A DNA stretch of 64,000 nt from Corynespora cassiicola. Lineage: Eukaryota; Ascomycota; Dothideomycetes; Pleosporales; Corynesporascaceae. The position numbers were made by a program, and so were the translations under genes. The notes below the pieces were generated by a model that searched no databases, was not told where the DNA came from, and saw only the letters and a program-made list of their open reading frames with translations. The DNA is taken from contig JAEUWY010000006.1 in the NCBI GenBank assembly GCA_022059125.1, positions 2,976,001-3,040,000 of the forward strand, in the 5' to 3' direction. Below, one piece after another: positions 1 to 42,304 of the stretch (position 1 is the first letter of the stretch; each line of letters starts with the position of its first letter).

Positions 1-2349
1 CTTTTGCGGTGAGAGTTGAGACTAGGTATCGCCTGAGTGCTTTTGTAGTTTGTCCTTTTGCCCTTTCGTATTCTATATGATCGCCCAGGGTTTTGTAGAC
101 CTCTAGAGGCTCTCCGAGATCGCAGTATGAATCGGCAAGGTTGTTGAGAAGCCGCGGAAACATCGTATCCTGAGGTGAAATTTGTTGCAAGCAGAAATTC
201 AACATTTCCACGACGAGGGTAAAAGAATGGTTTGCTCTGTAAATTTTGCAGACTGTGAGTTGTCTAGCAAAAATGCCGGCCAAACCCAGTGACGAAAACT
301 GTGGTTCGGGTTTCCAGTCGTCCACCTCTTCCAGCGCATCTGTGTATTTCCCTTGCTGTAGCAAATTTTCCAAGTGCGATCTATGAAGTTGTCCAAGCAA
401 CGCATATGACCTTTTGTCAAAGCTCTCAAATGGTTGGCGGTAATAACAGGAGATACAAGAGGGCCGAGGCATCCCACAATCGCAACAAAAGTCATGTACA
501 ATACGCTCAGAGCCGTCGAATTCTGAGTTGAGCCGAAGAAAAACACTGCGCTCATAAGCTATCCTAACCTTCTGGTGCAAGTCAAGACCTATCTCTGCGA
601 ATTTCTCCACAGTATCCAATGCCTGAGATCGAAATAGAGGCAACTTGGATGCTGCCAACAGCACTTCGGATGCTTCCCCTCTAACACATGGTAACTCAAA
701 AACTCTGGACTGGCACGTATCCAAGGCTTGTAGAAATAGAGGGAAGAGAACAGTCACCAATGCCGAATATGTTGGAGATGTCTCCCACGCATCCTCTCTT
801 GGGAAAACATAGCAAATCAACTGGAAGATCTGCAATGAGTTCTCATTGTCGAGAGTGTGGGTAAGGTCAGGATTGCCTTCTATAAGTCCTTCGCTCACCG
901 ACCCACTTTCGTTAATATCTAAGACAATATCAACGAGCCGTTGGTCAATACCAGAATTGCGAACGATAACTTCGTAAACCTCGCCGTTTTCGTCCCATCT
1001 CTTCTGAGGTAAGCGTACACGTTGAAATAATATTTCGGGAAATTCAAAGGCAGTTACTGCCGCTCTGAGTGGATCGTTAGGAGAAGAGGCGAGGCTGAGA
1101 GGAAGGTCCGATGCCTGAGGAAAATCTCCAAGTGGCGATTTGCGACGTTCCTGCCTCTCATGGATTGTGGTGTTTTCTTGTTGGATATGACCAATGTTGT
1201 CATGATCATGCATGGGATGCATGGGGCTAAGCCGATCATACGCAGGTTGGTTTTGAGTCTCTGATCATATGTGAGAAGTAGTCAATTGGATTGTTACAAA
1301 AGTGATCCAAATTACCAGTTGTTTCTAGGCGTCTTTTTTTTGATGTTGTTTTACCGCGCTTTGATAGGACTGGTACTGCAATCTGTTCGATGACGACTTG
1401 CCAAGGCCCAATTTGGAGTTCACGAATGGTCCTTGCAGCCTTTTCAGCTTGACTTACAAGGTTCACGTCAAGCTTGTTGAGTTCTGTTTTGATCGGTAAG
1501 AGAAATTTTGTTAATTTGTCCAATGTTCTTGGAATGTTTTGAGTTGCACTTCAGTATCTTAGATCTACTGCTTGGAATAGGCAAATATTTACTTACCTAT
1601 TGCTGGCAAGATAATCTGGAATCAGAACCCAAATCCCTTCTCCTAAGATGTCTCCAATGAGATGATATAGATTTCCAAGCTTCGTCCACTCAATCATCTC
1701 TTCGGCAAATTCGGCGTCTCCGCATACATGCTCTATAGTCTTTTTGACATATCGGCGGATTGTATCTCCTTTCGGTAAGTTCGAGTTTTCAGATGGGCGA
1801 TCGCCAAACTTCAGGACAAGATCTCGAAAGAAAAGACTGTTAAAAATCCATCGTATGTTGTCCTCTTGCCTGCGAGATTCTATCGTTTTCATCTCGTCCG
1901 CTTTCTGGAGAATCATCGATTTCAGGCGCATGATTGCTGTGGGGGGGTTGTTGATTGGAAAGGTACGCACAGCTAGCGATGACTCCAAATTCCACGATTT
2001 GAAAAACGCCGCAGGGTCATGCGCCCACTCACAAATCTTACACTTCAGCGCATCGTTAGGCTGTACGTTCAGATTTTGCAAAGTTTTGTTAGCTCTTCCG
2101 ATTCTGCCCTCACCATTTTTCTTGATGACAGCAGCGACAACCTCCCGAATTTCCTTTCAAAATCAGATGCTAATATTTATTTCACTCAAAAACACTCACG
2201 GGCTGCTCAAGAACTCGTTGAAGAACATCCTTGAGAGATTCGTCAGGCTCATGGTGCTCTAAAAGGCGCATAAAATCTCCTAATGTAATATTCATAGTGG
2301 TGCGTTCAATAGAGTTGGAGGAGAGAGGTGGCGAAGCTGAAAGACACAT
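1..2349 (-). CDS. TPR-like repeat protein, 3' end beyond window
   Basis: The gene has four exons by my reconstruction: 2349-2200, 2153-1597, 1548-1316 and 1260 to beyond position 1. Introns are 46-55 nt (GTGAGT..AAG, GTAAGT..AAG, GTAATT..CAG) and all phases agree. The last exon is one open frame of about 420 codons with no stop before the window edge. At least 733 codons are present. The product is soluble with no signal peptide or P-loop. The C-terminal part has helical-repeat character, with segments such as LENLLQQGKYTDALEEVDDW and LLNNLADSYCDLGEP that resemble TPR-like repeats of fungal proteins of unknown role. The middle is charged and low in complexity (around HERQERRKS). Alternative start at 2295. 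Function is not known. Confidence 0.68.
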
Positions 2350-4900
2350 TCTCTTAGTCATCGAATAGACTAAGCCCGAAAAAAATTCCGAAACGTACAA
2401 TCACATTTCGGGAGATACGTTCCGTTAGCGTATATTTAACCGAACTCTAGCCTGGAAGATTGATAAGCGCAGCGGCAAGTGTCCCTCTGGACAGTTGAAT
2501 ATTCTAAGACGGAACGGAAACCGATATATCCTTGAAAACATGCTCCTTTCTAGAGTGACATGTCCCGTAGCTGCCTATGGCTGCTTATCTGTATGCTCTC
2601 TAAATTCTACATCGCTCTCCAGTTATACTGTTCTTAGGGTCGTCATGGAATTATCAAAGTGATGCGCTCTTGGGACAGCGCCTGGACAATAAACGTAAGC
2701 GCGCTGCCATGTACGACGCCAACCAATAAATTTACTATAACCGCCATTTCCATCCTCAACCGCACACTAGGTTCCTCAGCTGGAATGTGCCGTACGAAAT
2801 CGTTTGTTAAATGACTCCGGCTTTTTTGTATCATTTCAGCAAAATGTTCACCCCGTAATATCGAAGTTGCCTATAGCGATAAAAGGTATCTAAGGTAAGT
2901 ACCGGTTGGAGTCCCGACCACGATGGCCTATTACAGTGTTCGTAAAGCGAGGTCAAGTGTTATTGCAGGTAGAGAGTTTCATCGGTTATCTACTAATTTC
3001 TTCCTATCTCACCACAATCGTGGTCTCAGCGAACATAGTATGCTTTTATGCTGATTTGTCCATTTTGTGTTCTTGTGGCGACGACTCAGACGTAATACAA
3101 TTTTCAATGGCATTCGGATCTACGGTGTGTATCAATACAAGAAGAGGAAAGATCATCGTTGCTAAGGCTTGGTTTGCATACGCCTTGAAAAAAACGAAGG
3201 GAGATTGTAATTGAGCTTATCTATATTGGAATCAATTTGCGGTCACATCCGTGCTGAGACAGTGTTCAACACATGAATGACGCTGAAAGTCGGTTAAGAT
3301 TTATCAATACTTAGTATGCAATCCGGCTCCATGAGAATCGGTCACATGGAGCCAACATCTCTAGGTTCTCCAAACAGAATGGCAGCGAGCATACGACCCA
3401 GATGGGGCATGTAGAACAATATATGAATACGCAGTGAATGTGATGACATATCTCTCCTCTCTTACACTTTATCCAAGCAATACAGCAAACAATACGAAAG
3501 AGATGTCTTTGAAGAGAAGATGAAATAAAAAAATGTCATGATTGCTAAAAAGTGCCTCTGTGCGCATAACATGCATTGTTGTGACGATGAGATGTTGAAG
3601 CTGAATTAAGACTTGTACGAAGGTTTCAATCCAAAAAGGCGGTTGTTAAGTAGGAAACTCAAGTCATTCTTCTTCAACTTTCCTCCCTCAAGAGACAAAG
3701 TTGGCAGAAAGCCAATTTAGGATGCTTGCAATCTGTTGCATTTCTATAAAAAATTCCCTAGAGTATTGGTATGATAAGGTACGCCTTTAAAGTTTTCTTA
3801 GATGAAAGTTGATGGGTTTAACATTTGAAATATGGCGGGGATATGCTGGGCAAGTAAACATCTTTGGGCACGGGATGACGGTTGGACCTCATTCATCAAT
3901 ACCGTAACATCACACATCTTATTTTCGGCATTCCCAAGTCAATATTACTTCTGGATTTTTTTTTTCGAATATCTTAGCTTGCGTATACTCATTCCCTAGA
4001 CTTATCATGCTATATTGGAATTTAACCCAATCTCGGTATATCAGACGGCTTGACATGTTAGACAACTACATGGCGGTAAACCCAGATTGATGAAACTATT
4101 GTCGAATTTTGAACTAATATATGAAAGCTTTAGATATCACTCTAGCATTTGAAATCGAGTCACATATTATGAAATGATGATGACGGCTGAGATTGCACGA
4201 TAATGCTTAATATTAGTGATGTGTATATTAAACAATCTTCTAAGCTGATGTCTTTAGGTGGAACACATGCCCACTGTCTAGGGGCTGAATTAGTTGTAGA
4301 TATGTATAGCTTAGTTGATAATACGAAATTCAACGTGAGCGCCACTATAAGGAGTTGCCTGATCTACCGATCCAGATAAGATGAGAACATTGCTACATCA
4401 CCAACGCGGCCATCTATCCACACTGTGACAATAACTGATATAAAGTCATAAAAGTAAAATAAATGGAAAATTCAACGCTGAAAGCCAACCCGTATGTAGC
4501 TTACAGGAATCTTCGAACCATAGCCTCAGTAAATCCTTTTGGATGCATCGACATACAACTCAAAACTCAAAACCGCTTGCCTCAATATCTTACGAACGTA
4601 TTCTATATAGCTGGTGTCATTTTTATTTATTTAGTATACCTAAGTGGTGACGTTAATTCGTATCTCGAACGATACACACTTCCAAAACCCGTCAAGTTGG
4701 TCGTTTAACTGTTTGGATATATTCAAGCACGAAATTTAAGCCGTGTTATTATTGGCAGACGACTTTGATTTTCAATAAGGGGTCGCATAGATTTCTGCGA
4801 GAGCAAATTTGAAAACGAGGGAGGAAAAAGAGGCTTGAGCATGGGCGGCAGCAGCAAGGTAGAATCGAGAAGCCCCGGTGCCGGTCAATTTGCTTCATTT
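2350..4900. other. Intergenic stretch without a supported gene
   Basis: Only short isolated ORFs occur here (102 aa at 2906-3214, 81 aa at 4463-4708). None has a recognisable domain, convincing splice partners or neighbours in frame. I see no repeat or inverted repeat of note. Confidence 0.4.
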
Positions 4901-4908
4901 GACCATCC

Positions 4909-4917
4909 TATATATAT
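4909..4917 (+). promoter_or_regulatory. TATA box candidate
   Basis: TATATATAT-type box about 315 bp upstream of the start codon at 5224. Allowing for the 5'UTR intron at 5156-5200, it is placed plausibly for this small gene. Confidence 0.4.
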
Positions 4918-5155
4918 TGAGAAGCCATTTACCGGTCAACTCTCTTTCTGAGCAGTTGAACCACTCTCAGTCATCTCAGCTTTTCAGACGTACGGTTAGT
5001 TTGCTCATCACGGTGCATCCGAGTGTTCATTGCTGCTATTGACCTCCGTTATTCACTCTTTTTCTATCATCGAGCTCCCCAACAACAATCCCAACCTGTA
5101 TCGAGCCAGCTCGTTGTCTTCATTGAGTCTTGAACTAATCATCAGAGCTACTGAG

Positions 5156-11394: not shown

Positions 11395-13487
11395 ACTATG
11401 TCCTGCGGTACTTCAATTCTTCGAACTGTGGATCGACGAGCACAACACGACCATAGTTTCTCGCTGCCCCTCTTTCTCTTGCTATATAGCCTTTTCATAA
11501 GTATAATTCAGATTTATCGATTCATTACATATCCATTCCTACGATAGCAGTCAGTAGATTGGCCGATCACAAGCTTCCAGTCGGTGAGGCCTATTATGCT
11601 CTACCGGAAGGGAAAATTGGCTGCTTGGTCGCATTTGTATCACGCAATCCTCAACATGAGTGGTCATAAACCCGTACAACTCTTGTCCTTCGAAGTACAT
11701 TACACTTAATAATGTTAAACTGCACTAAGAACGCCCGTGATACGCTAGTGAGACCGTCTCTTGCAGAAATGATTTTTTTAATTATTGCAATTCACATATG
11801 ACTCTGCAAGAGAGGAACGGCGGGACAAATGGCGATAAGACGTATATAGCGACGACTCGTTTTTAAGCTTTTCTTCGCGATCCCTAACTATCAACAAATG
11901 ATCAGAATGTAGTCGGAACTAGACATGATTGGAGATTATCGCTTTTTGAGAGCAAAACATTAGAAAAATCCTTGTCAGCATCTTTAGCCTGTGCAAAAAG
12001 ATGAAATGCGAACCAATTTTGTGGTTTCTGGCCATCGTGCCTGAATCAGGACTACCAACAGAAAATTTTGCAACCATATGCTTCTTACTCAACTAAACAT
12101 GGCCTCGGTCACCGATTGCGAAAATTTTTACCTCATAAATTTGGTTATTCTATTGGAAGCAGGAAGGATCGATGTTAATGCTCACATGATAGCCAGAAAA
12201 TGCACAACATCTAGTGAGGAAAATGGGCCGCTGCCTGTCAATCTACAAGCCGGATCGAATTTCCTAGAGGGTCAATGCGTTTTCTGTTCATCTCAGACTC
12301 TCAATCAACAAAAATAAATGTGTTGATATGCACCAGTCTAATGCAGGATTAACCTGGCAGTGGCTAGGGATGGGCTGTAGAGAAGATGAGACGGTAATGA
12401 AGGTGAGGGCCAACTATCGGTCATCAGTGATTACTATTCAGAGGATAATAATTCTATGTATACAACTGCGCGTGGTTCTATTGGGTAGAATTGTTCACTG
12501 GGCCACTGCTCCAATCCGCTCCACCCCCTCCTTTCTATTCGCACTAAAATCCGTCTACAGTCACACAGCGCTTGGTTTTGTCTATCTTATATCGATATTC
12601 GATACGGAAAACCCGAAAAGCTGGACAGTGTACCAAAGAAATTGCGCCATTGAAACCAAAAGTATTACCCGTATCAACCCCTGTCTTTGATCTCTTCGTA
12701 GTTTACACATGAATGTATCCTGTTCGAGATATAAACCTTGCAAAGTACATCATTCAAACCTTGCGAAGCCGCAGAGAAATAAGATTTTACAAGTTGCCTC
12801 CAAAAAGCAAATATCAGGGCTCTTTCTAATTTTATAGACATTAATAAACCTAGTCATATCCTGCTTTGATCAGTGTCGACCCTTACCCTGCTTGAAGGAA
12901 GAGTATGAGTTTGCCCGCAGTACATCAACAAGCAGCTATGAATGGATTTTAGTAAGAATCTATTTCTAATCTATGTACGACTGTATTGACCAGATTTCAG
13001 TCCGTTCGGCCAGAGAATCACCTTCACCAATCCGGTCGTCCTTCTTAGCATCATCATCATAGTCTCCATTCTCATTTTCATCATCAAAAATGGAAACATA
13101 GTGGCTTTCGATAACTAGCGAGCAAGAAGCAATCTAGTGCTATGTTATCGTATCTTGCGAGCCTCGAATATGTGATTGTTAAAAGCATGTTACGGAATCG
13201 GGATTGTCGGAATCGGAAACAAATGCGCAGCCCGCTGTTCTTGTCAATGTAGCCGGGTGGATATTCCTCTCCTGCCATCATCATTCAATGTAATTCAAAG
13301 ATTCGTGTAGTCCTGAAGCTCTTCTAGCTCTTTGGGCTTATTGAGACATCTTTTGGTATTGCTCTTCAGATTAAAATCATCTATGAACCAATCTCATGAC
13401 CTGTTCTCGTTTTGGAAGTCGAAACAAGACTGAAGTCATTTGACCGCTTTGGCCTTGATAATATGCTAGAAATGTCCATAGACCTAT
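11395..13487. other. Intergenic stretch up to the Copia element
   Basis: About 2.1 kb with small ORFs only (79 aa at 12078, 120 aa at 12328). Neither shows conservation-like features or splice partners. I see no gene here. Confidence 0.45.
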
Positions 13488-13661
13488 CTAAAGTATAGGT
13501 GTGGGGAAGAAGAATGAAGACTGAGTTGATTGCTATAGATAACTACCGCTCTGTACTTATATCCTCCATGGACTAGGGTCTGTCTGAAGTGCGTGGGATG
13601 GTAGGTTTCATATACCAAAAGCAAACATACCACAACGATGCTAGTCACGTGAAGGTCAACA
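13488..13661 (-). repeat. Copia 3' LTR
   Basis: A 174-bp direct repeat of 18954-19128 with about six differences. Read on the minus strand it starts TGTTGACC and ends at CTTTAG. The adjacent purine run (a G7 tract on the minus strand, about 13662-13675) is the polypurine tract just inside this LTR. Confidence 0.9.
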
Positions 13662-13775
13662 CACCCCCCCAGCTTGAAGCGAATGTGGAAAGCTGTGTGA
13701 AAGCTAAAACCAATGCAGAGAAGCAGTTTAAACAGTAATGAATGTTGGATATGCAATCCGTGGCGTTCCATGTAC

Positions 13776-16700
13776 TCACTGCCATTTCGTGAGGTCTGCC
13801 GGAAGCCCCTGGGAGACAATGAGAGAGTCCTTTTCCAGTTCGAGCGAAATATCGACGAGTCCAACCTGATGTACGAAATCGCGATGTTTCTGTCGAGGAA
13901 GAATCTTGGTGAAGCCGTCTGCTAGCATCTTGGTAGTGGGCACCCATTGTACAGCAAGGCGACCACGCTCAACTTCCTGTCGAGCCCAAAAACCTTCAAC
14001 ATTAACGTGCTTCATACGGGTCTGATATCTGTCTGAAGGTTTGTTGACGATCCCGACTGTTTGCTGATTGTCACAATATAGGGTAGGCAGAAGACCGGAA
14101 TCGAAGCGTATGCCGTGAAGGAAGAACTCCCAGGCTCTTAGCTCGGTAGCGGCGTGGCCAAGGGATACCACTTCTGCCTCGGTCGTGGACTTGACGACTG
14201 CACGTTGTATAGTTGCCCGCCAGTCTATGGGCATGCCGCTGAGCATGAACACATAGCCCTCGGAGCTGCGAAGCGTGTCCGGCTCGTCTGCAAAGGAAGC
14301 ATCGGATGCGCCATAAAATGTTTTGGTGTCAATCTCACGTCCGTCTGCCTGGATTGCCAGTGTCTGCGTGCCGATGATGTATCTCCAGACGTGGATGGCA
14401 GCAGCGACGTGTTTTTGTCCTGGATTCTGAAGGTGTCGTGCCAGCACCGAGTGAGCGCGCGCGACATCCGGGCGCGTAAATGACGCGAGGTAAGCGAGCG
14501 AGCCGACTAGCTGCTGGTACAGCTTGGTGCGGGACTCGCTCTGCGGTTCCGTGGATTTTGGTAACCAATTCTCTTTCAACGGAACGTCGGGGTAGTAGGT
14601 GTTCGTGCTGGACCTCAGCTTGAACCTGGCGGCAACCTTGTCGATGAATGAATCTTGGATGAGCCAGATGCGATGCGTGTCCCAATCTCGGACAACGCGC
14701 ATGCCAAGAAACCACTTGAGTTGGCCGAGCTTTCTAATATCGTAGATCCTTAGAAGCTTATCTTCAAACTGTTGGTGCACGTGTAGGTTGCTCGGGTGCA
14801 CGAGAATTACAATGTCATCTACGTAGAAGAAGACGATGAGGTGCTTGTTAGTCCAGACGCATGGCGCGTTGTCTACCGGTTGAAGACCGAGATTGCGTAG
14901 CGTGTTGCGAAGCTCTTGGTACCAGAGAAGAGGTGCTTCGCGCAGCCCATACAAAGCGCGGCAAAGCAGCAGTATCTTCCCGTGCTCGCCCTTGAACCCC
15001 TCTGGCGTCCAGACGAAGAGACGGCGAAGTACTTTGGCGTTGAGGAAAGCGTTGCTGACGTCATACTGAAACATCAACAGTCCGAATGCGGCTGCCAAGG
15101 CCACAAGCGCGCGGAAGTGCTTGGTAGCGAGCGTGGCGGCATACGGATCCGCGAACGCTGCGTCGAGGTCTCCTCTCACAACCAGCCGAGCCTTGAACTT
15201 GGCCAGGTATCCATCTTCGTCGAATTTGTAGGTGAACACCCACATGAGTGGCAGGATCTCACCATCTGCGGTCTCCGGCTCGTGATCTGTGCGAGCGAAG
15301 CACTCCTTTTTCCAACAGCCATCGAACTCGACCTTAGACGCTTCGACGAACTCAGGCCCGAACGTGTGGGTCGCCAGGTCCTTGTAGCGCTTAGGTGGAG
15401 GCGGGAGCTGGTCTCTGTGGAGCGTCTTGCCTTCCTCGAGGCGATCTCGCAGGACCTGTGGAGAGAGGGTGAGTGCAGCAGCGAAGGTCGCATAGTGGGC
15501 TGCTGCGGTTGATGGCGGAGGCGGCGTGTGGCCTCGCCTATGGTTTCTTCGTGGCGGAAAGATGGTTATGCCCTCGGCTTGTGGAGCTGGGCGCCTTTCT
15601 CTTCTGCCCTGAATGATGTTGCGGACATCACCGATGCCTGGATGATAGGCTTGAGGAGCATTGTTCGAATGTCGATCCGGTACATAGCCTGGTAAGTCAG
15701 TCGCTGAACGCATACCTTGGTAGGAAGAAGTTGGCTCTGTAGCTGTAGCCGTATCGTTCCTGTTCACGGGTCCAGCCCCTCCTGGTGTCAAAGTACCGCT
15801 TGCTGTGCTTCGGTAGCCTCTCAGACCAGCGAGTGAAGGGTCTGGCGTAGGATACGTGATCGGTTCGTTCATGTCCTGCTCAATCTGCGCATCGACTTCT
15901 TCTTGGATGTGCTCGTCGACATCAGCATCGCCGGATGGTAGAGGCATCATGAGATCCTCGGTGGTGGCGTCGATGAGGTCCTGCTCGACATCCAGAAGAC
16001 TGACTACCTCGCGCAGGTCTTGCTTGTCCTCCTTCTCCGAATGATCGTTCTTGTACAGAATCGATCGATCGAACACAACATCTCGCGTGCGCACGACGCG
16101 GTCAAGCTCAGGGACCCAAATCCGAAATATGTTGGTGGAATTGTACCCAAGAAGATAACCAAGTCGTACCCTGGAGCGCAATCGATCTGCTCTTTTGAGG
16201 TCTTTGCGGTGGACATATGCTCTGCAACCGATGGGTGCAAAGTGAGCAATCGACGGTGGTCGGCCGTGGACTGCCTCAAAGCTGGATCTGAACCCAAGCT
16301 TGTCGATGGGAGTCACGTTCTGTAGATGTGCGCCAGTGACGAAGAGCTCGTTGGCGAACTTCTGTGGAAGGCCAGAGTCAAGGTGGAGAGCTCTCATCCG
16401 CTTCACGAGCGTGTCTCCAGCCTTCTCCGTGTGGCCGTTCTGTTGGGGTGTATCGGCTGAGCGAGGCTCTACCTTGATTCCTGCAGCGCGACAGGCGTCA
16501 TAGAGGTCGTTGCCGTACCCGGTGTCGTTGTCGATGCGAAGAACGATAACGCAGTAGTTGTATTGGCGCTGTATGCGAACGACGAGTGCCTTGAGTGTGG
16601 GTACCAGTACATGCTGAGCCCTCGTGGCTAGCGTAGTGGCTTCGTGCCATTCGGTGTACTCACACACTGCGTGCAGGCCGTATTTGTCGCCGTTGTAGCT

Positions 16701-18626: not shown

Positions 18627-18940
18627 TTCGAGCCGTATAGGTCGCTGCAGATGTAGCCGAACAGAGGCAATCGGGCACTCTGAACGCTGGTAGTGTGCAC
18701 AGGTGATGCGTGTCTATCGCTGTGGCTGCTAGTGCACAGGACTCGTGTATGGACGCAGATGGGTCGCTGTACGATCGCTGTGGCTAATGCACGCTGCACA
18801 GAAGACAGCAGTCAGACGCTGTGACTGACCTTTGATTGCGAGGCTCAGGCTCGGCAATCAGCATGTGTGTGCTGAGCGACAACGAAGTGCTCAGTAGCTA
18901 GGTGAACGCAGTAATTGGCAACTTGCTAGAAAGCGTGTTC

Positions 18941-18953
18941 CGGGCTCATAACT
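18941..18953 (-). other. Copia primer-binding site
   Basis: Directly inside the 5' LTR the minus strand reads GTTATGAGCCCGG. Its complement contains CTCATAA, an anticodon-loop sequence of initiator tRNA-Met. Drosophila copia is known to prime from a tRNA-iMet half-molecule at this arm, and the same arrangement is inferred here. A near copy (GTTACGAGCCCGG) follows the LTR ending at 36266. Confidence 0.65.
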
Positions 18954-24899: not shown

Positions 24900-25083
24900 C
24901 TAAAGCATGGTTGCGGGGAAGAAGAATGAAGACTGGGTAAATTCTTACAAATAGTCAAGGCTCTGTATTTATTATTTTATCCATAGACGAGGATTTCTTT
25001 TCAGGGGCACGGGATAGTATGTTTCGCATGCTAAAAGCAGACAGACCATAAGAACACCGATCACCTGAAGGTGAGCACGACAT
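24897..25083 (-). repeat. Diverged solo LTR of the 13.5-kb Copia family
   Basis: Aligns along its length with the Copia LTRs: it shares the CTAAAG start, the GGGGAAGAAGAATGAAGACT block, the GGGATRGTAKGTTTC block and a CACCTGAAGGT end near 25075. It is clearly older than the element at 13.5 kb. No internal sequence adjoins it, so it is a solo LTR left by LTR-LTR recombination. Confidence 0.75.
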
Positions 25084-25212
25084 GATTGTAGTATTAAAGA
25101 CATTGTAAACGATTGTTCGAAGCTGACGTGTTAGCTGTTGGAAGCGATAGTGACGAAAGAAATGATTGCGTTGCTGCATAAGCTTGGCTGGCAACGGATA
25201 TATATAAGGCTA

Positions 25213-25267
25213 GCGTGATTTGTCCCCCGTTTTTGAGATTTGTCCCCCCTTTGAGATTTGTCCCCCG
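25213..25267 (+). repeat. Three tandem GAGATTTGTCCCCC motifs
   Basis: Three closely spaced copies of GATTTGTCCCCC with T-rich spacers immediately left of the MULE gene. They may be part of the MULE terminus, but I did not find a matching inverted copy on the right side. Confidence 0.45.
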
Positions 25268-25407
25268 CGCTAGTGATGGTGGAAATGAACTACTTAATCA
25301 GGTTTAGTGCGTAATCTATCAACGCGACCACAGCGCGACATCTACGCGGTCTGGACTTCTTCGCATCCTCCTCAGTATCATAGTTGGTTATCTCTAGTCT
25401 TGTGTAC

Positions 25408-27602
25408 ATGGCCATGGATGCCATTCCAGCCCCTCCTGAATCTATCTGTGACTCCTATAAAGAAGTATATGATGCTCTCAAGACACATGGCATGCAACAT
25501 GGCTACGGCTTTGTTCTTAAGCGGAGCAAACCTCACAATTCAGATGTTAAAACGCGATATTACTATCATTGTGATCAATTTCGAAACTACCAGTCGAATT
25601 CCAAAAAACTGAACACAAGCACACGCTCAAGAGAATGCCCCTTCAAGCTGGTCATCTTCAAGATGAAGCATAGCGAGCAATGGAAGCTAGACATCCTAGA
25701 CAAGCATCACAAACGCCCTTCATCAATTGATACCAGCGCGCACAATGTGTATCGCAGGCGCACAACAGCACAGAAGGAGGTGATAGAGCTGATGACCTAG
25801 GCGGGGGCGCGACCGATGCAGATTCTCGCCACAATTCAAAGCGAAGACCAAGGCACACTGATTTCCGCCACCGGCATCCGGAGCGAGAGGAAGGCAATCA
25901 AGGAGAGACACTTAGGTGGGCGGAGTCCAATGGAAGCATTGCTCGACAATCTATCTACAGCAGACCGGGTTTTTGCTCTGAAGAAGGATAGCAACAATCG
26001 CATTCAAAATCTCTTCTCCGCCCACCAGAAGCAGGTCGAGCTGCTACTGGCAAATCCTGACGTCCTTCTAATGGACTGCACTTATCGGACCAACAGATAC
26101 AGACTTCCGCTGCTCCACATACTGGGCTGCACTAACCTGCAGACGTTCTTCTCTGCTGGATTCTGCTTCCTCAGCAATGAGACATATGCAGATTACCATT
26201 GGGTGATCGCCAGCTTCCTCCTCAAGACAGGTGTGCAACGCCCACGTGTGTTCATCAGTGATCAAGAAGAAGCATTGAAAGCATCAGCTCGCGCGCTACT
26301 TCCTGGGGTTCCTCAACTTTTGTGCGTGTGGCACATCAACAAGAACGTGCAGGCGAAAGCACAACAGACCTGGCGAGATGCTGATGGTGTGACGAAAGAG
26401 GAAAAGCAGAAGATCGCTGATCAAAGAGCTTTGTTCATGAAACGCTGGACTCAGGTATGCTGGTTCTGGCCAAGGGGATCGCTCCAAGAGGAGCTATGCC
26501 TTAGAATTAAACAATCTTTAGCTAATCAGAGTAGCTAGTCTATGCCAAAAGACCCTTGGAGTTTCAGTTCAAGTGGAACGACCTACTGAAAGACTACAGC
26601 TACCAGCTGGAGCTTTGCAGGTACCTGCAAGAAAATCAATACCTTACACGCACTGAGTGGACAGCAGCTTGGACATCTCATCACCGACACTACAGCACAA
26701 TCACGAGCTCGCCCGTTGAAGGAATGCACAAAATCTTGAAGGAATACCTCATGACCTCGACAGGTGACCTACTTCGTGTTGTTGGGAGGATCGAGCAGAT
26801 GGTCAAGAGTCAGTACAGTAAGTACGTGAAGGAAATTGCATCTTCTAAACATAGAACCAAATTTCAGCACAAGATAGAGTCAATGCCGTTGTTCTCACCT
26901 GGCATCCACGAAGTCCTGACTCCGCTGGCCATTGAACGCATCAGGCAACCCGATCTACTGCGCCAGAAAGAGCAAAGACAGCGTCGCGGAGGGCATCCTT
27001 GTTCGGGTCTTTTTGAGAAAACAAACGGCCTCCCGTGCCGTCGTACGTTGCAAGAGGTAATGGCTGCTAGATCAACACTTTGACTAGATCATCTTTATGA
27101 TGATGATTGGCGCTATCAACGTGAGCATGGACCATCGATACGCTCGACCTCTAGACCGTATCAGACCGTCCTTGAGCCACTCCCCGCTCAAACGAGAGGG
27201 GCACCTAGGAGGAACGAAGCATCAACTCACCGAAATCCGTCAACTTTTGAGCGAAGCGTACCGCCTTCCGTTCCTCAATTTCAGACTTACCATCAATCCC
27301 AGGGTCAAACACTGGCTGAAGCCCTGCAGCAAGTCAGTACCTCCGTGACTGTTTCGATTCCCACATCTGGTCCAGGTTCAGGTCCTGTGACCACCTGCAT
27401 ATCTTTGTCAATTCCTGCACCTGCACCTTTACCTCCTCCCGCTCTCATTCCTTCATCTCCGCCCGTCGCTGTTGCCGTGTCAGTGACTACGGCTCCGCCT
27501 CTTGCCTGGCAACCTCCAACGTTGGAGGAATTCTTAGCCGACGTCGAGAGTCGACGGGGCCAGCGCGTCCTATATCATTGCTGTCACCAATTGGGGGTGT
27601 GA
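25408..27602 (+). pseudogene. MULE transposase, two nonsense codons
   Basis: Mutator-like transposase with an N-terminal FAR1-like zinc-binding region (residues about 20-110). The MULE DDE domain follows (LLMDCTYRTNRYRLPLL, then VFISDQEEAL) with TSSPVEGMHK further on. A degenerate SWIM-type motif (CSGLF...GLPCRRT, Arg where His is usual) and a Pro-rich tail end it. One intron, 26455-26534 (GTATGC..AGTAG), in phase 0. The frame is otherwise open except for TAG at 25798-25800 and TGA at 27081-27083. Both can be explained by single C-to-T changes (CAG to TAG, CGA to TGA), so the copy is recently dead rather than decayed. Element ends are not resolved. Confidence 0.82.
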
Positions 27603-27657
27603 GAGTTATCGTATTGTCAAGGCGGTATCTAAGACTAAGTAGTGACGCTAGCTAGTC

Positions 27658-28240
27658 ATGTGCATCGGTCACATGACCACTGCCTTCATCGCCCATCTTG
27701 ACAATTGCAACGACATAATTTCAGCAACCATCTTCCGGGCAGAGACAGGCCAGGAGGAGGACCCTACCGAGCTGGTAGAAGCGCGGAATATGGCTCTCGC
27801 TATCCAGGGGCTTTTTAAGAACTGCACTCCCACTCTGGCTTGGAACTATCATTTTGGAGATATGGATGCTTTTTATACTGAGAGATTTGCACAAGTCGCT
27901 GCCCAAAATACGCTTGTTGAACCTCAACATGTATCGGAACGGCGGTCTTCTTCGAATTCAAATTTAGATTGAAGCGCCCTGCGAGGCTTAGAGACACGGT
28001 TTTCTTTCATCGAACTCCTTATTTAGCCCTCCGAGCATCAAGGAAATTGATGAGGTCACAAGTGGACAGGGGGATTCCCGCTGATAAGCTGATTTACGAC
28101 ATATACAAAACAGTCGATGACACAGTTGGGATGGCGATGACCCTTACAGAAGGGCGATATTCTGAGAGAGATGCGACTGTAGAATATTTCAGAGCAAATT
28201 GCAAATTTGTTGGTATCAGAACAAAAGACTCCGAGCGTCC
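27658..28240 (+). pseudogene. Hypothetical coding remnant interrupted by a solo LTR
   Basis: Two overlapping frames (27658-27972 and 27969-28240) each have protein-like composition, for example TELVEARNMALAIQGLFKNC and then RGIPADKLIYDIYKTVDDTV. They may be exons of one gene, though I found no splice that keeps phase. The second frame is cut at 28241 by an LTR. No family is recognised. Confidence 0.35.
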
Positions 28241-29016: not shown

Positions 29017-30856
29017 TCAAGTTGGCTGGTATTCAAGCTCGAATAAGACAATTTTTTCCTCCACGTAACTACGCATGAGATCTCTCGCTCGGTCTCGGAT
29101 AGAAAAAGTCGCAGAAACTAATGACGGTCAGCAGCATGGCCTTTTCTTGCCTTGATAGCATCTGGTATCTCACCCAGTACCGCCATATTTTCTTGTTCTT
29201 TCGTTTCCACCTGCACCCGCTTGATATATTTTCCAGCCCGCTCTTCTTCGAAAATCACCTTTAAGTCCGGCGCTAGGCCGTAGTAGACGTCAACCCGCCG
29301 GCCCACTGGGATCTTATACTTTTTACCTGATGTGATGTATATAGAGATAGTCAGTATCTGCTCTAGGTCAGTATTTGGGAGTTTCGCTTCCGGCAAACTA
29401 TACATACATAACCTTCATCTAAGGTATCGCTCTTCAAAGAAGCATTGAGCAAAGGCTCCAATATGGCAATCTCATCTGCTTTGAATCAGTATGAGGTATG
29501 TAATATTGACCAAGCGGGGCAATAACCATCTGTCTCTAGTTGCCATATCAATCGGATTCGACGATTGCGAGATTTACAAGCATTGTAGTCGTATATGAGT
29601 TTCCTGAGATAAGGTAGCTGTGATGCTATACCGAAGCCGCTAGCAATCATGAGAACAGTTTCATAGTTGCTGGCTGGAACGCTGAGCCCATGCGGTCCGC
29701 TAAAGAAAGCAAGGTAGGACTGTAATCCATTGACAAGTATGTCACTTTGCAAAAATCCGTCTTCTCTCTCTTCATTGAGAAGCTTTTGATCAACCCTCCG
29801 TGTTTTGAGTATTTTTTCGTTCTCTTTGCCTACTTTTAGCAGCTTGTGTGTCAACCCATGGCAGGGCTCTATGAGGAGGTGGAGATATTGCTGTTCTCCC
29901 TCCGACCAAGACGTCACAACGAAGGGATGGCTTTGCAGAAAAGACATCAAGCTGACTGCTGGAATCCATAGCCCTACGTACTGTCCTGCTTTAACCCTGA
30001 CACGGCGGGACAAGTGCAGTCGAATCTTTACCGCATCACCATCACGAATGATGTAAGCCTGTGAAAGACCGGTTCCCATGGCCTTATTTCTATACAAAAG
30101 GTGCATGGACTGTAGAAATAGCATCGACAAGAAAGAAGCCGCTAGAATGTAAAGATTCAAACGGGTGAGAAATGGCTGGAGCTCCAGGTGGCGCCAGACA
30201 GAAAAGGCAATAAGAGCTGCTAGTGCCTGGTGTATCCGAAGAAAAACTTCGTATGAGTATCGGCGGAAAATTGGACAAGAGAACAATAGAAGAAGACTCA
30301 GCGACGCTGCACCCTACACGCTGTCAGTGGTTTCAGGAGATAGGGAACTAACAATGAGACTTACCACAAGGCCCCACATGTTGTGTGCTATCTCTAAAGG
30401 GAATGGCGTTTGAGTGGTCATCATGATCGCAACATGAAAAGCTAGAAGAGGGAATGATAATATGCCGGCCAAGCGATGAATGCGTCGGAATGTAAATAAC
30501 GAAATACCGAAAACATCTGCAAGAAAGCTGAGGTGTGGACCAGCAAAAGCTGGGATCAGATTAACCAACGAAAGATTGGCAGCACGTGCCCCAGCTACAT
30601 GGATCGACGGAGATTGGAACCAGAGACAGAAGGTGTTCGCCGCGAAAAGTAATACTGGCACGAGGATTTCTGATCGATTTAGTGTTCCTGTGTAGCGATT
30701 CCTTTGGATTAGTTGAGGGTAGACGAGATACCGGAGCACTAAGTGTTGGACGTAAGCAATGCATTTCATTATGTGGGAACGAGCATTTAAAAGTAAAAGA
30801 AGTATGAAATAGCTGGCCATAAACATAGCATACGCATGAATATTATTAATGGTCAT
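29017..30856 (-). CDS. Ferric-chelate reductase (FRE family), five exons
   Basis: Exons 30856-30365, 30313-29527, 29475-29413, 29362-29174 and 29117-29017; four introns of 50-56 nt, all in phase, giving 543 residues. The family transfers electrons from NADPH through FAD and two haems across the membrane to reduce Fe(III) outside. Visible are the membrane domain with paired haem His (RRIHRLAG...AFHVAIM and FLRIHQ...VWRHL), FAD-binding HPFVVTSW, NADPH-binding IASGFGIASQLPYLR and the conserved end LFELEYQP. The last exon is missed by simple ORF reading because a 56-nt intron (GTGAGA..CATTAG, GCTGAC branch) separates it. The pseudokinase lies 241 bp upstream on the same strand. FRE genes are recurrent Starship cargo. 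The gene appears intact; the middle introns are the least certain. Confidence 0.9.
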
Positions 30857-31097
30857 TTCGATAGCAGCTAAACAAAAACTTATGGAAAAACTGTCAGAAG
30901 AACACCGACTCTTTAAATGCTGCTCTAGTGGAAGCGAACAACCTTTGTAAACAGAATTGTGTTCCTAAATGCTGACCTTCTTACCAATACGGGATATTGT
31001 TCGACAAATGGACCAACATATGGGCTTCTGTTTAAAAATAGACGTCTTAAGTACAATTTGCACGGATCATGAAAGAAAGCCCAGATTCGGTCCAGAA

Positions 31098-32179
31098 TTA
31101 GGTACGGAAGTGAGTGGATAATAAAGTCATCCATACTAATCTCTTAATATGTTCTTGTTTCCAGGGAAGCTTAAGCAATGGGTGCTGATCGACGTTAGCT
31201 TCTATAGTAAAAACATGCAGAAAAATCACCTTCTTCAATTCTTCTACAGATATTGCAGAAGTGGTGACTGCAACGAAGTCGACAGCAGCAAAATCCCAAC
31301 GATATGGATCAGCAATACTGACTGTTTCCCTTCTGTTGACACTTTCGCCCATTAAAACAGCGGTGATGTGCTTCAGTGCTCTGATATCTGGATTTTCATT
31401 CTTCTCCGATACGCGAGAGTGGCAGCATTCAAAGCCCGCTAATAGACTAGATCAGTAAACCGTTGCACAGATATATACGTGACTGACCTATCTTGACCTC
31501 CCCCTTTCTACTGACTAATATATTAGAGCATGTTAACGAGCCATGCTCCAGACCATTATCGGATAGATAGACAAGACCGTTAACCACCTTTTGGAGTTAG
31601 CTATCTATCGAAATAGCCATTACTACTATCCAAAAGACGTACTTGTCCCAATATCGCCGCTAGACGGATTGTATCGATGCGATTGGATATTTTACTCAAA
31701 TCGTGAAGGGAGATGGGCATATGCTCGAACACGACATGAGTCGCTTCCTCGAATTGGAAGATATCAACTACAGTAACGAAGTTGGGGTGCCAAATTTTCT
31801 GTATCATTTGAAGTTTATCCTCATCCAGGGTACCTAGAAAGTGTCGAATGGAATATTCCTCGTAAGGGAAAGCCCTTCTTTCTGCATAAGTGACCCAGAA
31901 GTCAACACCGAGTCTTAGAGAGTGAATCTCTTCGTAGCTTGACCATGGAGATACTTTTCTTACAGCCCTACACGCATTGACAGGGAGTCGAGCGAGCTGT
32001 GGTTGTCGTCCTCCGGGAAATGTCGTTTCACGACGAGGCCGAGCACTTTTTGCAATTAGTGGAGGGAAGGTGACTGCTTCTGACTGTTCGATACTATCAC
32101 AAGTTTTTTCTCGCTCCTTGAAATCTTCATGCAGATGGCGCAACGATTCGACGTTGATCTGGGTGTGGCGCTTGTCCAT
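31098..32179 (-). CDS. Fungal protein-kinase-like protein, probable pseudokinase
   Basis: Exons 32179-31643, 31587-31488, 31438-31230 and 31184-31098 (introns 55, 49 and 45 nt with clear CTAAC-type branch sites in two) give 310 residues. The kinase fold is seen in YSIRHFLGTL, the hinge-like THVVFEHMPISL, GLVYLSDNGLEHGSLTCSNI in place of the catalytic loop, and the C-lobe end HPLLKLPWKQEHIKRLVW. The loop has HG where active kinases have HRD, and the DFG position reads AGF, so the metal-binding Asp is missing. There is no glycine-rich loop. Related degenerate kinases are numerous in fungal genomes. Catalysis is unlikely; the role is unknown. Confidence 0.75.
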
Positions 32180-32930
32180 ATTCGACGAAACTGTGAAGAA
32201 GAAGGTGAACCCAAGCAGACTTGAATAGAGGGTGGCAAAATACAGGAATTTAACTCCCGTTGTGGTAGATGACTTTACTATAAATAAAGAGATCTCTCAT
32301 CAAGCGATTGTCTCCAGAATACTCCCATGCCAAGGAGTTATGTACTAAATGGTCGCATGCCGAGTGGTTTTACCCCGTTTAATCATGTCATGATGGGATC
32401 TATTTTTATTCTCGGGGATAAATGTTATTGGCCAAAAAACTCTATTCTGGTTTGACCCCAAGTGGTTTCTCCACCCTAGTCTAATTTTCTTACCCCAGGA
32501 CCTTTCTTCCTTAGTGATCTTTCGCTAATTTTAACATCACATGAGATAAACCCAAAAATAAGCCCAGTGAACTAGTACATGCTTTAAAATGCGCGAGGAG
32601 CCTAAAATTATCTCCACTTAGAGTAGACATGACTCACAGCCTAGGCTATCAAAGCGCTACTGATCAAAAGTGAGGTTAACTTATAAATCACTTGAAGTGA
32701 ATATAACTATGATGACATCCACAAAGAACAGCATCATCTTTTATTTATGCAGAACAAGTCGGTTTATATTCACCAGTATATCCTTACTCCTTTATGCGTG
32801 TAAAACACCTGCAACACAGTCTAGAAATAACGTATGTTTCTATCTTCTTTTCCATTCGCAATCTATTGACTCTATTTCATGCAAATAAGTCAATATACCT
32901 TCTTCCATACAAGACTCCGCAAACTTAACA
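32180..32930. other. Intergenic region between divergent genes
   Basis: 750 bp between the start codons of the pseudokinase (minus) and the DUF3723 gene (plus). AT-rich in places. No gene or repeat seen. Confidence 0.5.
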
Positions 32931-35348
32931 ATGCCACGCTGCTCGAAAACGAGTTCAAATGACTTTCTCCATTGGGAAAGAAGACTAACAGAGGAGAGAA
33001 AGGCTAAATATAGAGGAACGGCGAGTGTCAAGTTTGAAGTACTTGATTTTCAGCATGAAAAAGATATCAAAGATGAAAAAAGGATTGACCATTTCTTTAT
33101 GGAAAAAGATTGTGATCGGCTCGATTTCCAGAACCACATACCCGCTCTCATCGATCAGCAGTCTCTTGACGCTGCTATCCAGTATTCAGGTCTACAGAAT
33201 AGTTCGCTGATGTCTGAAAAAAGAGAGAATTTCCTGAAACTAGAGTTTCCTCCCGGTATCCGACTAGAATGCCTTCAAGGCCTCCATAGAACTCAGGCAG
33301 CTGCAATCCACCTTCCTGGCATGGAAAAACGATGGATTGTTGAGTTATTACTCAAAGGTTGGACACTCCCGCCTCATACTAAAAGATACTAGGCCACTGA
33401 CTATATCCTAAGACATTAGTGAAGACTTGAAGATGCACCTTATTGAAAAATATTCACGCGAAAGGCAGCCAAATGATGGGGAATTTTACAGCAAAATCCG
33501 TCGCTATCAGCAATCTGGCAACGATTTCTTTGAGAAGCGTTGGATGGCTCGATTAGAACGTATAGCCCCTCGAAAAAGGAAGAACTTGACAAGAATCTTG
33601 AGCAATAACGCATATGTGTCTGCGTTCGATGGCCAGCTAGCTATGCCCGGGCTTGGAGGAGGTATGAAGCTTAGTACATTGCATACAATGCTTGCCATGC
33701 GATGTGACGAGGTATGGGCTCGGGAAGAATCTTGCGCAAATATTTTCGGTTAGTAACACTAGCAGGAAATTCTTCGCTATCTCAATTACATCAACGATAC
33801 ATGGTCTAGGATACTACTCAGAGACACTGAAACGATGAAGAAACTGGACAGATTTACGGTTGAAGTAGTCCAGCTTACAGCTCCAGGAGCTTGTCCACGG
33901 GATAAAGAGAAATTGCATGGTATGCTAGAGAAAGGTCACATTTTCCAGGCTTTCAGCACGCCGGAGCGTGAAAGAATCTGGAGGGAAGTATTAGCCGTAT
34001 CAGTGGATCGCTTGATACCCTCACTACACAGTTTTTTTGCGGACCTCAATTACCTACAAGGTCCGGCAGAATGCATCAAGCAACTCTACGACTCACCCCA
34101 GGATCTAATGCATACCACACTGAAACATTATTTCTCCGACAAGAACCAACAAAACAACACCTGTATAGTCCAAATTTCAGAATCAAAGTTTGTGACCAGA
34201 CCAGGAAGTGCTACAGATCGGCTTGACCTTGGGTACAGGCAGATATGGTTAAGCGCGATGCGAGAATACAAATGCATTCCACCACGACCGAAAAAGGTAG
34301 CAAGAGACCTAGTAGCCAAGCCAACTCTCAACGAAAACGAGTTGGCCTCATCCAGATTTGCAAATCTTTCTTATCGACTAGGCTTTGAAACTAACCAAAT
34401 CCGAAAGTTAGCCCAGCGATCTGGTGACAGAGAGATTGCTCGCAATGCCCTGCTAAAAGCTCGAAACCAAAAACAGTTCTTATACGACTCTTCAATTTTT
34501 GAAGAGTCCGTGCAGAGCATAGTAAAATTCTTCAACCTCGCCACGGAAATACCAGTAGAAGAAGAAGCCAACATGGTATCTAAAGTTCGCTATCTGCATG
34601 ACCCGCGGCAGCGTTGTGGACTTCCTAGAGACCGAGACTATCAGGATGATCGTTTTGTACTTTTCTTGGATAGAATTCACGATGGAAAAAGAAAAGAATC
34701 TGGAATAACGCCATTCTTTGTCCGCAGATCCGTTTACCTAGCCTTTTTCGGACCGTTCTATGCTACTAATGGTAATATTTCGATGGCCTTTCATGAAGAC
34801 ATAGGTGGAAGCATATCGGAGTGTGATAAAAGAAAGCAGACTCAGCGTGAGCAGCGTGAGCAGGCTGAGCTTGAAGTGCGAGAAAGAGCCGAGGTAAAGC
34901 AATCTGAGTTGCAAACTATCTCAACGCCGTCAACTGCCGCAGTTGTGGAGCAGACGAGTTGGAAAGAGCCACATCATGCTCAAATTTCCGTCAGTGAGCC
35001 ACATGTAAGACCCAGACTACGACCTTTATTTTCGACTTACTCATCAGCATACAGCACACAAATAACACTGTCTCAAAAGTTTGCATTAATTTCATGATCT
35101 GGAAAGAGGGAGAATGGAAAGTCGACCATGCTGTGCTTGATGACCCCAGAAACGAATGGGAGTTCAGGAGAGTGGCAATCAAATACATAAATAAGGGGAT
35201 GGAGATTTTGGATCAAAACAAGAGGACGTTGAATATCGAAACGTTTTTGGAGGATGTCATTAAAGACAAGTCAAACGCTGTATATGTGGCCAGACGAACC
35301 CCTTTAAACACGAAATCACAGGAACGGAAAAAAAGGCTGCTGCATTGA
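32931..35348 (+). CDS. DUF3723 family protein, four exons
   Basis: Exons 32931-33357, 33413-33711, 33766-34993 and 35080-35348 (introns 55, 54 and 86 nt, all in phase) give 740 residues. Family motifs run through the joins: LQGLHRTQAAAIHLP, EKYSRERQPNDGEFYSKIR, PGLGGGMKLSTLHTMLAMRC, LTAPGACPRDKEKL, IFQAFSTPERERIW and LIPSLHSFFADLNYLQ. A Gln/Glu-rich stretch near residue 570-600 is followed by the C-terminal WKEGEWKVDHAVLDD region. DUF3723 has no known biochemical role; it is one of the families most often found as Starship cargo. The gene appears intact. The third intron (34994-35079) is the least certain, since a second donor at CAT|GTAAGA gives the wrong phase. Confidence 0.88.
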
Positions 35349-39396: not shown

Positions 39397-41803
39397 CTAT
39401 GTCACTATACCGTGTACATCCAAGGCATGACGCTGGAAGTGCATCTTGTCCTGGAGAGATATCTTGCAGAGCTCACAGCTAGGACGGACCCCTCCCCTGA
39501 TGTACTGCAAGTGCTTCCGCTTGAAATGTCTGCTGACATCGCCTCCGCGGCCGAATTCGTAGACGCGTTCTTTGATGGGCAGGTTAGGGTTGCCCACGCA
39601 CTTGAAACACCTCTTTGGCCTCTTCTCTTTGTACACAGATACCTTTGCCGCTTCTAACACCTCTCGGTCGCGCTCTGGCTGACTTTTACCTGGCGGAGCA
39701 TCCTTTCCACTCTGTCGCTTCCTTCGAATGGGGTTCATGACACCCTCTTCAATGCCACAGTATCGCGTAACGGCACGGATTGCCTTGTTCCGTCGGCGAA
39801 GTTCCTCCTCCAGACTGAGCCCGGGCTTTGCCAGCATGGCGTCGACCAGCTCCTGCTGGGCAGAGGGCAAGACATCGTGCACCTCTTCGAACTTGTCTTT
39901 CGGTTCTATGCCGGCCAGCTGCTGCTCCACATCACGCACGGACTGTTCGTACTCCCAACGCTCCTTGACGTCCTGGAGAAGGGCGTGCCGCTGCCGCTGC
40001 CTTTCCCGGTTGATCTTGCGGCCGAGCACTTTGTACTGCGAGTGCTTTACGGCGTCCTTGCGGGCACGTCTGAGTCGCTCTCGCTGTGCGATCAAAGAAT
40101 GGACGGCGGGATGTTCGTTCACGGATGCAGATTGTTCTGCCGTGAGCCGGCGTGGCCGACGCCGATCGACAGATCGGCTCATGGTACAAGCCGCCCGCAT
40201 GAGCGCGTCTCGGGGCTGCATGCCTCGCACCACTGCCTGCACGTCGACCGTGATGCGTCGTGACAGGTAGTGCTTCAAAAACGTCTTGATACTGGCGTGC
40301 CCCATCATCAAGTTCTGCATCTGGTCCTTGACGTTGCCTATGCAATGTGTCAGGACTGTGTGGTCCCTGCAGCAACTCGCTAAGCTTACCATCTTCATTG
40401 AAGGCTTTCCCTCCCGCATATCTCAGCGAATAAGGGCGAGCGACCTGAGCAAACCCCGTGATCTGCCCTAGATCTCGGATCCAGGGCAGCAAAGTGGAAT
40501 AGGGAAGTGGTTCGTCGGGAGAGATGGTCCAGCCGTTCGAAGTCTTCACTGCTTTGCGGAACACCGGGATATCGTCCAGACTCTTGTTGAGACGCAGGGG
40601 AAGCTCGTTGCGGCAGGGCGGGATGTGGAGCCTAGTCAGCTCCTCTTCCGAGGTCAAGTTGTAGGCTGCAAATGCTTGGTCGTGAAAGAGCATCCCCAGG
40701 AGGATGACATGTGGACTGAAGATGAGGGAATCATCGTACATGATTTCAGGGAGAGGAAACGTGTTCCTGCACAGCCTATCAGTGCTCGTCAGGGTACAAG
40801 GTGTTAGATGGGGTACACTCTACATGTCTTTGACTCCGAGAAACTGTTTCGTGAATTCGAAGGTGAATTCTAGAAAGATCAGGTGAGGGCCGCCCTCTGG
40901 GTCTCGGCGTAGTGTGGCTTGGATATGCCGGTAGTGGAGGCCGAGGAGAGCCTTTGGCCGGTTCGCAGTCCAGCCGCCGAGTTGTAGATAGAGCTGAGCT
41001 TGCATCCGATAGCGCCCGTGGCAATACCGCTTCTCCGTCGTGACCAGATTCGTTCGCAGCACTAGGGTCAGGTCCTCGACATACATGCAGGCTTTGTCGC
41101 GACCGATCGCCACCAGGCCGTGTTTCTTTGCCAGCTTCCTCAGCACCTGTGCTCGAGGTCAGACATGGCGCGCGCGTTGCCCTCCGACGGGAGACTCTGG
41201 GGCTGGCTAGTCATACCTTGTGCATGCTCCGGTTCATCTTCGGATCGAGCTTGACCCCGGTCGACCTTTCGTATACGAGACGGAAAACCTTCCAGTACGT
41301 CCCGAGGGAACTCTCGACCTTAGTTCTTCGGCGTCTCCTCTCTGACTCCCCCCAGCGCTGGCCGAGGAGCCAGTCGAAGAACGTGAACAGAGTACCGAGT
41401 GAGACGGTCTCGTAGTTCCGGAGCCCGTCTTGGCGCAGATACGTCCAGCACCTGAGCCTGTATCAGCGGCGGATTGCTCCACCGTGGGATGTCTCTCGGT
41501 CTGGAGTGTGACCTACCGGTGCCATTCGTTCTCGATGCGGTCGAGAAGGCGGGTCGTGCTGTCCTTGTAGTCCTCCTTGGTGTATTCCCGTTCGTCGAAT
41601 GTTTCCAGTTGCTGGATGTAATACTCGGGCGGATGGCCGTCATCGTCAGAGAGCCGTGCTTCCTCTCTGAAATCTCTACCTAGCTCATCGTTTTCACTAT
41701 CGTCGAAGGTTTGCACATCCGTTAGGTCCATATCTGAACTGTTGTCCACGTTAGACTCGGCGTATTCGCTTCCGGAGTCCTTGTGCGATGAACGTCGTGG
41801 CAT
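39397..41803 (-). CDS. Starship captain: DUF3435 tyrosine recombinase, five exons
   Basis: Exons 41803-41517, 41451-41217, 41146-40824, 40766-40390 and 40337-39397; introns 65, 70, 57 and 52 nt, all in phase, giving 720 residues. Captains cut and join Starship ends at short target sites. Visible family blocks: YKDSTTRLLDRIENEWHRCW, FTFFDWLLGQRW, SLGTYWKVFRLVYERSTG, the Arg block ANRPKALLGLHYRHI, LIFSPHVILLGMLF, the second Arg block RPYSLRYAGGKAFNEDG, and GHASIKTFLKHYLSRR with the likely catalytic His and nucleophilic Tyr. A Cys/His zinc-finger-like region follows at the C-terminus (CFKCVGNP...HFKRKH, CELCKI...HALDVHG). No stop or frameshift is seen, so the gene looks intact. The same frame is open to an ATG at 42094, so a 97-residue longer N-terminus with poly-Ala/Gln is possible. 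Confidence 0.93.
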
Positions 41804-42034: not shown

Positions 42035-42060
42035 TGCTGCTGCTGCTGCTGCTGCTGCTG
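42035..42060 (+). repeat. (CTG)n / (CAG)n triplet repeat
   Basis: Nearly nine TGC/CTG triplets upstream of the captain start, in its 5'UTR or in the alternative N-terminal extension. Confidence 0.85.
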
Positions 42061-42223
42061 AGGAGTCCTGGACTCGACATGGCACGGCTGACATGCAACG
42101 AGACTCTCAGGGCTAACTCGAACCTTACCCCTTGCATGGACGCAGGGCTCGACGCTAACTGTACTGGGAATCCCGAAGGGCACGTGCGCGGGAGGGGTGT
42201 TCGGAGGGTTTAGGGAGTTTTTG

Positions 42224-42283
42224 CGGCAAGCCAGCGCCCGAAAACGGCTTCACCACCCGCCAAATTCGGCCGCCAGCTTGCCG
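42224..42283. promoter_or_regulatory. Subterminal inverted repeats at the Starship end
   Basis: CGGCAAGCCAGCG at 42224-42236 and CGCCAGCTTGCCG at 42271-42283 are inverted copies with 11 of 13 matches, 17-76 bp from the inferred edge. Paired sites this close to a transposon end are good candidates for recombinase binding. That role is inference. Confidence 0.5.
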
Positions 42284-42297
42284 TCGGATTGTTTAAG

Positions 42298-42304
42298 AGA
42301 GTAA
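42298..42304 (-). other. Starship insertion junction with TTAC motif
   Basis: GC content collapses here and homology to the second Gypsy copy begins at GTAA (42301). On the captain strand this reads TTAC followed inward by TCTCTTAA, fitting a TTAC(N7)A pattern. The matching unoccupied place in the second Gypsy copy (51399-51402) is also TTAC(N7)A. Confidence 0.6.

Follow-up and report, generated by a model that had tools for sequence, protein, structure and literature searches.

Does the sharp edge of AT-rich DNA in a 64,000-nucleotide stretch of Corynespora cassiicola contig C6 (C6:2,976,001-3,040,000, hereafter the window) mark one end of a whole, recently moved Starship transposon, or is it what remains of a broken one? 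We consider it probable, judging from the sequence, that the window contains the 5' portion of a Hephaestus-like Starship whose captain gene is still open and which would have been separated from its 3' end by a later rearrangement; the impression is of an old remnant with rearrangements rather than of a freshly moved whole element. An initial annotation of the window had already identified a Starship, and this identity is borne out by the captain, an exact junction at the target motif and a terminal repeat that matches a 3' end on contig C13. Besides the window the analysis covered the adjoining 200 kb on the left and 6 kb on the right, in a genome of 44.35 Mb in 23 contigs; negative positions (e.g. 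-177 kb) lie left of the window on C6, and 242 kb left of the element's edge was covered in this way. All evidence is internal to this one genome, and the empty sites that we read are paralogous, not allelic.

The captain gene, encoding a DUF3435 tyrosine recombinase, lies at 39,397-41,803 on the minus strand. After splicing of four introns of 52-70 bp its five exons, read from 41,803 to 39,397, form an open frame of 720 aa that covers positions 1-418 of the 418 in the Pfam DUF3435 model (E 3.9e-138). The gene faces inward (leftward) from the edge, with its start codon about 500 bp inside it, and the residues R237, Y394-x-x-R397, H421 and Y431 are present. Splice model, full Pfam match and catalytic residues together agree with the initial annotation, which had described an open, five-exon recombinase at the edge, pointing inward. 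Catalytic roles are assigned to these residues because the roles have been given for the captain of the Starship Sanctuary (PMC12506042). The same R, Y-x-x-R, Y pattern is formed there by the catalytic residues R260, Y424, R427 and Y458 and here by R237, Y394, R397 and Y431, although captain and cargo differ between the two elements and the comparison is one of published residues, not of an alignment. A DUF3435 search of the genome returned 11 matches at six loci, with no match on C13. One relative of the captain, on C22, retains the equivalents of R237, Y394, R397, H421 and Y431, all of them, and is 45-46% identical over the two longest aligned stretches and 26% over a third. At another locus, C8:1,285,572-1,313,174, DUF3435 and DUF3723 matches occur within 28 kb, which marks a possible further Starship.

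The edge itself could be placed to the base. GC content drops from 0.57 at 41-42 kb to 0.14 at 43-44 kb and stays at 11.5-23.2% per kb from 43 kb onward, and the index of repeat-induced point mutation (RIP), calculated as (CA+TG)/(AC+GT) per 2 kb, is 0.18-0.53 in the right flank and nowhere below 1.05 to the left of it. By GC content, RIP index and repeat matches this flank (42,305-64,000) lies outside the element and is the insertion target: a multi-copy, RIP-mutated repeat, widely recurrent in the genome and cut at the edge. The initial annotation had called this repeat a relict of a Gypsy element, an identity that we treat as putative. Among the matches listed, 29 further copies reach an identity of at least 84%; 28 of these extend beyond the position of the edge (to 734-750 of 750), while one, on C13, ends at 707 of 750. 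Sixteen uninterrupted copies (15 of the 28 that run through, plus the window's second copy) were aligned across the junction; they were picked for running through, so that the continuity of all 16 follows from the selection and the test concerns the site only. They fix the edge at 42,300/42,301, next to the TTAC of the target (42,301-42,304, minus strand), and in this respect the clean 5' junction with TTAC in a degraded repeat that the initial annotation had reported was confirmed. Read on the element strand, the site is TTAC(N7)A in 11 of the 16 copies, the other five having TTAT, a RIP-type change (four copies), or TTGC (one copy); TTAC(N7)A is the canonical target of Hephaestus (PMC12153272). 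The flank also contains a repeat of about 2.1 kb twice, in inverted orientation and at 86% identity (42,518-44,670 and 51,436-53,582), with many copies in the genome.

A 5' terminal repeat, AAACAATCNGACGGCAAGC, is found just inside the edge (42,276-42,294, minus strand). Exact matches occur at two places in the genome, the edge itself and C13:124,831-124,849, with one further match that has two mismatches, compared with none for the reversed control. On C13 the repeat, identical at its 18 specified bases, abuts the opposite half of the flanking-repeat family at the same site as the window edge, and for this reason we read the C13 place as a 3' end, lying on another contig. Both junctions carry TTACTCT, which occurs in 0 of the 16 uninterrupted copies, and this shared heptamer suggests a candidate crossover core of seven bases. 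The initial annotation had predicted, to the left of the window, a second TTAC and the missing half of the repeat: both exist, joined to a Starship 3' end, but on C13, and the C13 half may be the other half of this very repeat copy. The terminal 3.45 kb leading up to the C13 end matches, besides itself, C2:4,890,787-4,890,962 (76%) and 35 bp on C23. The C2 place is another, diverged 3' end, which stops at TTAC and gives way to AT-rich DNA, and TTAC is thus present at the 5' edge and at both 3' ends. The pattern GTAA(N7)GACGGCAAGC matches exactly at two places in the genome, the C13 and C2 3' ends; with at most one mismatch there are 21 matches, among them the window's own 5' edge, against 10 in the reversed control. 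A match to the terminal repeat with two mismatches at C2:2,820,448 was dropped, the surrounding DNA having no AT-rich flank, as were 11 nearby sites that differ from the 3'-end pattern at 2-3 positions and have flanks with a GC content of 0.40-0.60. A frame with a chromodomain (C13:121,888-122,532; PF00385, 28.8 bits, above cut-off) lies about 2.3 kb inward of the C13 3' end.

The element resembles Hephaestus of Paecilomyces variotii and Nebuchadnezzar of Aspergillus fumigatus, both of the Hephaestus family, in its TTAC(N7)A target (PMC12153272) and in the DUF3435 captain that faces inward from its 5' end. It differs from the Hephaestus family in that no 3' end was found beside the captain and that the insertion lies in a RIP-mutated repeat, and the likeness is one of target motif and captain placement. 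We make no claim that the element is absent from print.

How far it extends to the left can be judged by comparison with C13. The block common to the C13 Starship (19,130-25,207) consists of two matching stretches, 19,130-24,770 with C13:113,889-119,532 (94.7% identical) and 25,089-25,207 with C13:119,650-119,768 (91%); window positions 19,200-24,770 have no other long match in the genome besides C13. Leftward this homology ends exactly, at 19,130, at a Copia retrotransposon (13,487-19,131, minus strand) with a frame of 1603 aa (RVT_2, E 1.2e-35) and long terminal repeats that are 96.6% identical. By eye, the bases flanking this Copia differ and no target duplication is visible; a related Copia at -176.9 kb has matching flanks, again by eye. 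Beyond the break, C13:108,300-113,885 has no long counterpart, the longest other match being 266 bp on C5 (79%), and C13:96,001-106,000 shares with the C6 region only two repeat-like pieces (one of 766 bp, 76% identical, the other of 124 bp, 86% identical). The Copia is probably a rearrangement joint and the left limit of demonstrable Starship DNA, which leaves about 19,130-42,300, interrupted by a MULE-type transposon, as the secure part of the element.

The initial annotation had taken everything to position 1, at least 42 kb, for cargo. This claim was not sustained, as the C13 homology stops at the Copia without a target duplication and no 3' repeat with an AT-rich flank was found in the 242 kb left of the edge, the pattern being searched at up to three mismatches; a canonical 3' end was not found near on C6 either. 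Its observation that no AT-rich flank recurs on the left does hold for the composition scan of 1-42,300 and the 200 kb further left, where the one strongly AT-rich patch left of the edge is a stretch of 350 bp at -177 kb, and a left end with such a flank inside the examined 242 kb was rejected on the same scan. The proposal of recent movement likewise found no support, with no partner end found on the contig and the piece shared with C13 drifted to 94-95% identity. An inversion between the window Copia and the inverted copy at -176.9 kb was considered and dropped, given that the C13 sequence past the break finds no long match at that place and that the flanks of that copy match.

These observations would fit a history in two steps. 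The captain, presumably by the movement through a tyrosine recombinase that has been described for captains (PMC12153272, PMC12506042), would have inserted the element at a TTAC(N7)A site within a copy of the degraded repeat. That this captain itself catalysed the insertion is inferred; its open frame with the catalytic residues, the exact 5' junction, the target motif, the matching C13 end and the break of homology at the Copia are observed. A later rearrangement, most likely an exchange at the Copia copy, would then have removed the 3' end from this stretch, and we would tentatively place this break on C6, as a Copia-mediated exchange, and not on C13 as a change there. The remnant is probably immobile as it stands, even if its captain may still be able to work on ends supplied in trans. 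In this it resembles derelict Starships, for example the RIP-affected copies of Prometheus (PMC11623301), likewise remnants and probably immobile; those copies are heavily RIP-mutated, whereas here the element side has a RIP index of at least 1.05, looks rearranged and retains an open captain.

Several points weigh against a Hephaestus-like 5' part cut off on C6. The shared block is in plus orientation on both C6 and C13, yet the element ends have opposite polarity, and because of this an inversion has to be assumed in addition. The rearrangement could have taken place on C13 instead, the absence of a Copia target duplication was judged by eye, and the evidence includes no allelic empty site and no second strain. 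Since the C2 end is diverged (76%), a more diverged 3' end on C6 could be missed, and one match to the GACGGCAAGC pattern with one mismatch, at C6:338,277, stands in left-end orientation, about 2.7 Mb away.

Among the alternatives, the one that we take most seriously, while regarding it as unlikely, is that the C6 5' end and the C13 3' end belong to one insertion, split inside the element by a translocation or by an assembly error. Both ends lie at the same site, at complementary halves of the same repeat, and share a TTACTCT found in none of the uninterrupted copies, although this heptamer could derive from the element via the crossover core; C13 has no DUF3435 match, and the search of nearby C6 sequence yielded no 3' end. 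C13 moreover starts with repetitive coding sequence and without telomere repeats, and C22 also starts without them, its far end being telomeric (13 TTAGGG in the last 600 bases), so that assembly breaks inside elements are possible. What speaks against a single split insertion is the shared block itself, of which each contig has its own copy (94.7%): one element would have to hold it twice, inverted. The same question is raised by a second pair of ends, as the C22 captain starts less than 1 kb from an AT-rich edge and the C22 and C2 flanks align at almost identical positions to a second repeat, a copy of which, in the window, runs through 46,356-46,361. This pairing is less exact, with about 40 bases of C22 before the edge unaligned. 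It is a tentative and, in our view, somewhat doubtful generalisation that such complementary end pairs on different contigs (C6/C13 and C22/C2) reflect either translocation cuts or captains that recognise a particular position in a repeat beyond TTAC(N7)A, with TTACTCT as a 7-base core.

A single large and intact Starship that continues past the Copia and ends in a diverged 3' end on C6, left of the 242 kb covered here, appears less likely still. Starships can reach about 700 kb (PMC12134995), the region to the left is rich in transposons and accessory-type genes, and another DUF3723 gene lies at C6:2,673,282-2,674,913; to -200 kb, however, there is no second AT-rich flank, the homologues of the C13 end number three (C13, C2 and C23) with none on C6, the terminal repeat at up to two mismatches is found on C6 at the 5' edge alone, and the Copia flanks do not match. 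We give very little credence to a lone DUF3435 gene outside any Starship: solo DUF3435 genes are commoner than captains (PMC12134995), but here the flank is interrupted precisely at a TTAC(N7)A site, a 3' end has the same terminal repeat, and a DUF3723 gene and a ferric-reductase-like gene adjoin.

These neighbouring genes had been named in the initial annotation, and Pfam matches at about 33.1-35.3 kb (plus strand) and 29.1-31.0 kb (minus strand) agree with it. The DUF3723 gene (33,099-35,348, plus strand) matches PF12520 with E 1.9e-91 on one frame and with further pieces; the matched stretches contain stops, some of which fall in introns of a putative four-exon model. Two other DUF3723 genes, the one at C6:2,673,282-2,674,913 and one at C3:51,331-52,962, have near-equal scores and exon spacing, and their matched stretches are free of stops. 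The ferric-reductase-like gene (29,121-30,964, minus strand) has FAD_binding_8 (40.5 bits) and NAD_binding_6 (23.8 bits) domains, both above the Pfam cut-off, and a Ferric_reduct domain below its cut-off of 28 (24.2 and 18.4 bits); its last exon candidate matched no Pfam family. A stop at about 30.3 kb was considered as a break in this frame and dismissed, as by eye it lies within a 51-bp GTAAGT...TAG intron (30,364-30,314). Between the two genes, protein-kinase-like pieces occur in two frames (31,450-32,296, minus strand), with PF07714 at its cut-off (23.1 bits, on one frame of 49 aa) and PF00069 below cut-off. The Pfam scans of the window covered the longer frames, and among these no family of patatin-like phosphatases or NLRs, which like DUF3723 and ferric reductase are typical auxiliary genes of Starships, was found; Rfam gave no match, and neither did a search of the PDB by sequence.

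Within the shared block, a frame of 333 codons (19,848-20,849, minus strand) with a bZIP-like basic region (bZIP_1, 17.4 bits against a cut-off of 27.6) is open in both the C6 and the C13 copies. Its ratio of non-synonymous to synonymous substitution rates (dN/dS) against C13 is 0.28, and two more frames of the block have values of 0.25 and 0.79, all of them rough, as the frame ends were set from stop to stop. Rightward the match with C13 ends at the MULE-type transposon (25,208-27,949, plus strand; PF10551, E 6.6e-24), which has frame breaks and is inserted at the end of the block; a 95% copy of 25,207-27,181 lies at -124 kb, and a match on C7 reaches about 27,949.

On a practical matter, the edges of Starships are hard to place without several strains. 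A multi-copy target aged by RIP provides paralogous empty sites, and one assembly was therefore enough to obtain the edge, the motif and further ends of the family. The locus also calls for caution, in that distance from the captain is not to be read as cargo, a probable joint 23 kb in being where the demonstrable element ends. If the paired ends were real splits, Starships could be tested as breakpoints, possibly recurrent, of chromosome rearrangement.

The region left of the window has further features of its own. Between about -26 and -4.7 kb there are three frames of the cytochrome P450 type (one of them a fusion with a flavodoxin domain), a short-chain dehydrogenase, an amine oxidase, an NADH:flavin oxidoreductase and a sub-threshold EthD match, a run of genes that looks like part of a biosynthetic cluster. 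Two inverted, near-identical pairs occur on C6, -199,999..-197,065 with -195,229..-192,295 (2.9 kb, 99.97%) and -87,479..-85,344 with -79,985..-77,850 (2.1 kb, 99.7%), and a 99-bp tandem repeat lies at -146.3 to -143.9 kb within a putative gene of 1,266 aa that comes from a simple custom predictor. The two Copia elements (window 13,487-19,131 and C6 -176,899..-171,257) and an element resembling a long interspersed nuclear element (C6 -64,777..-59,758) have long open frames and a composition that is not RIP-like, near heavily RIP-mutated blocks, as if RIP had weakened or these elements were newcomers.

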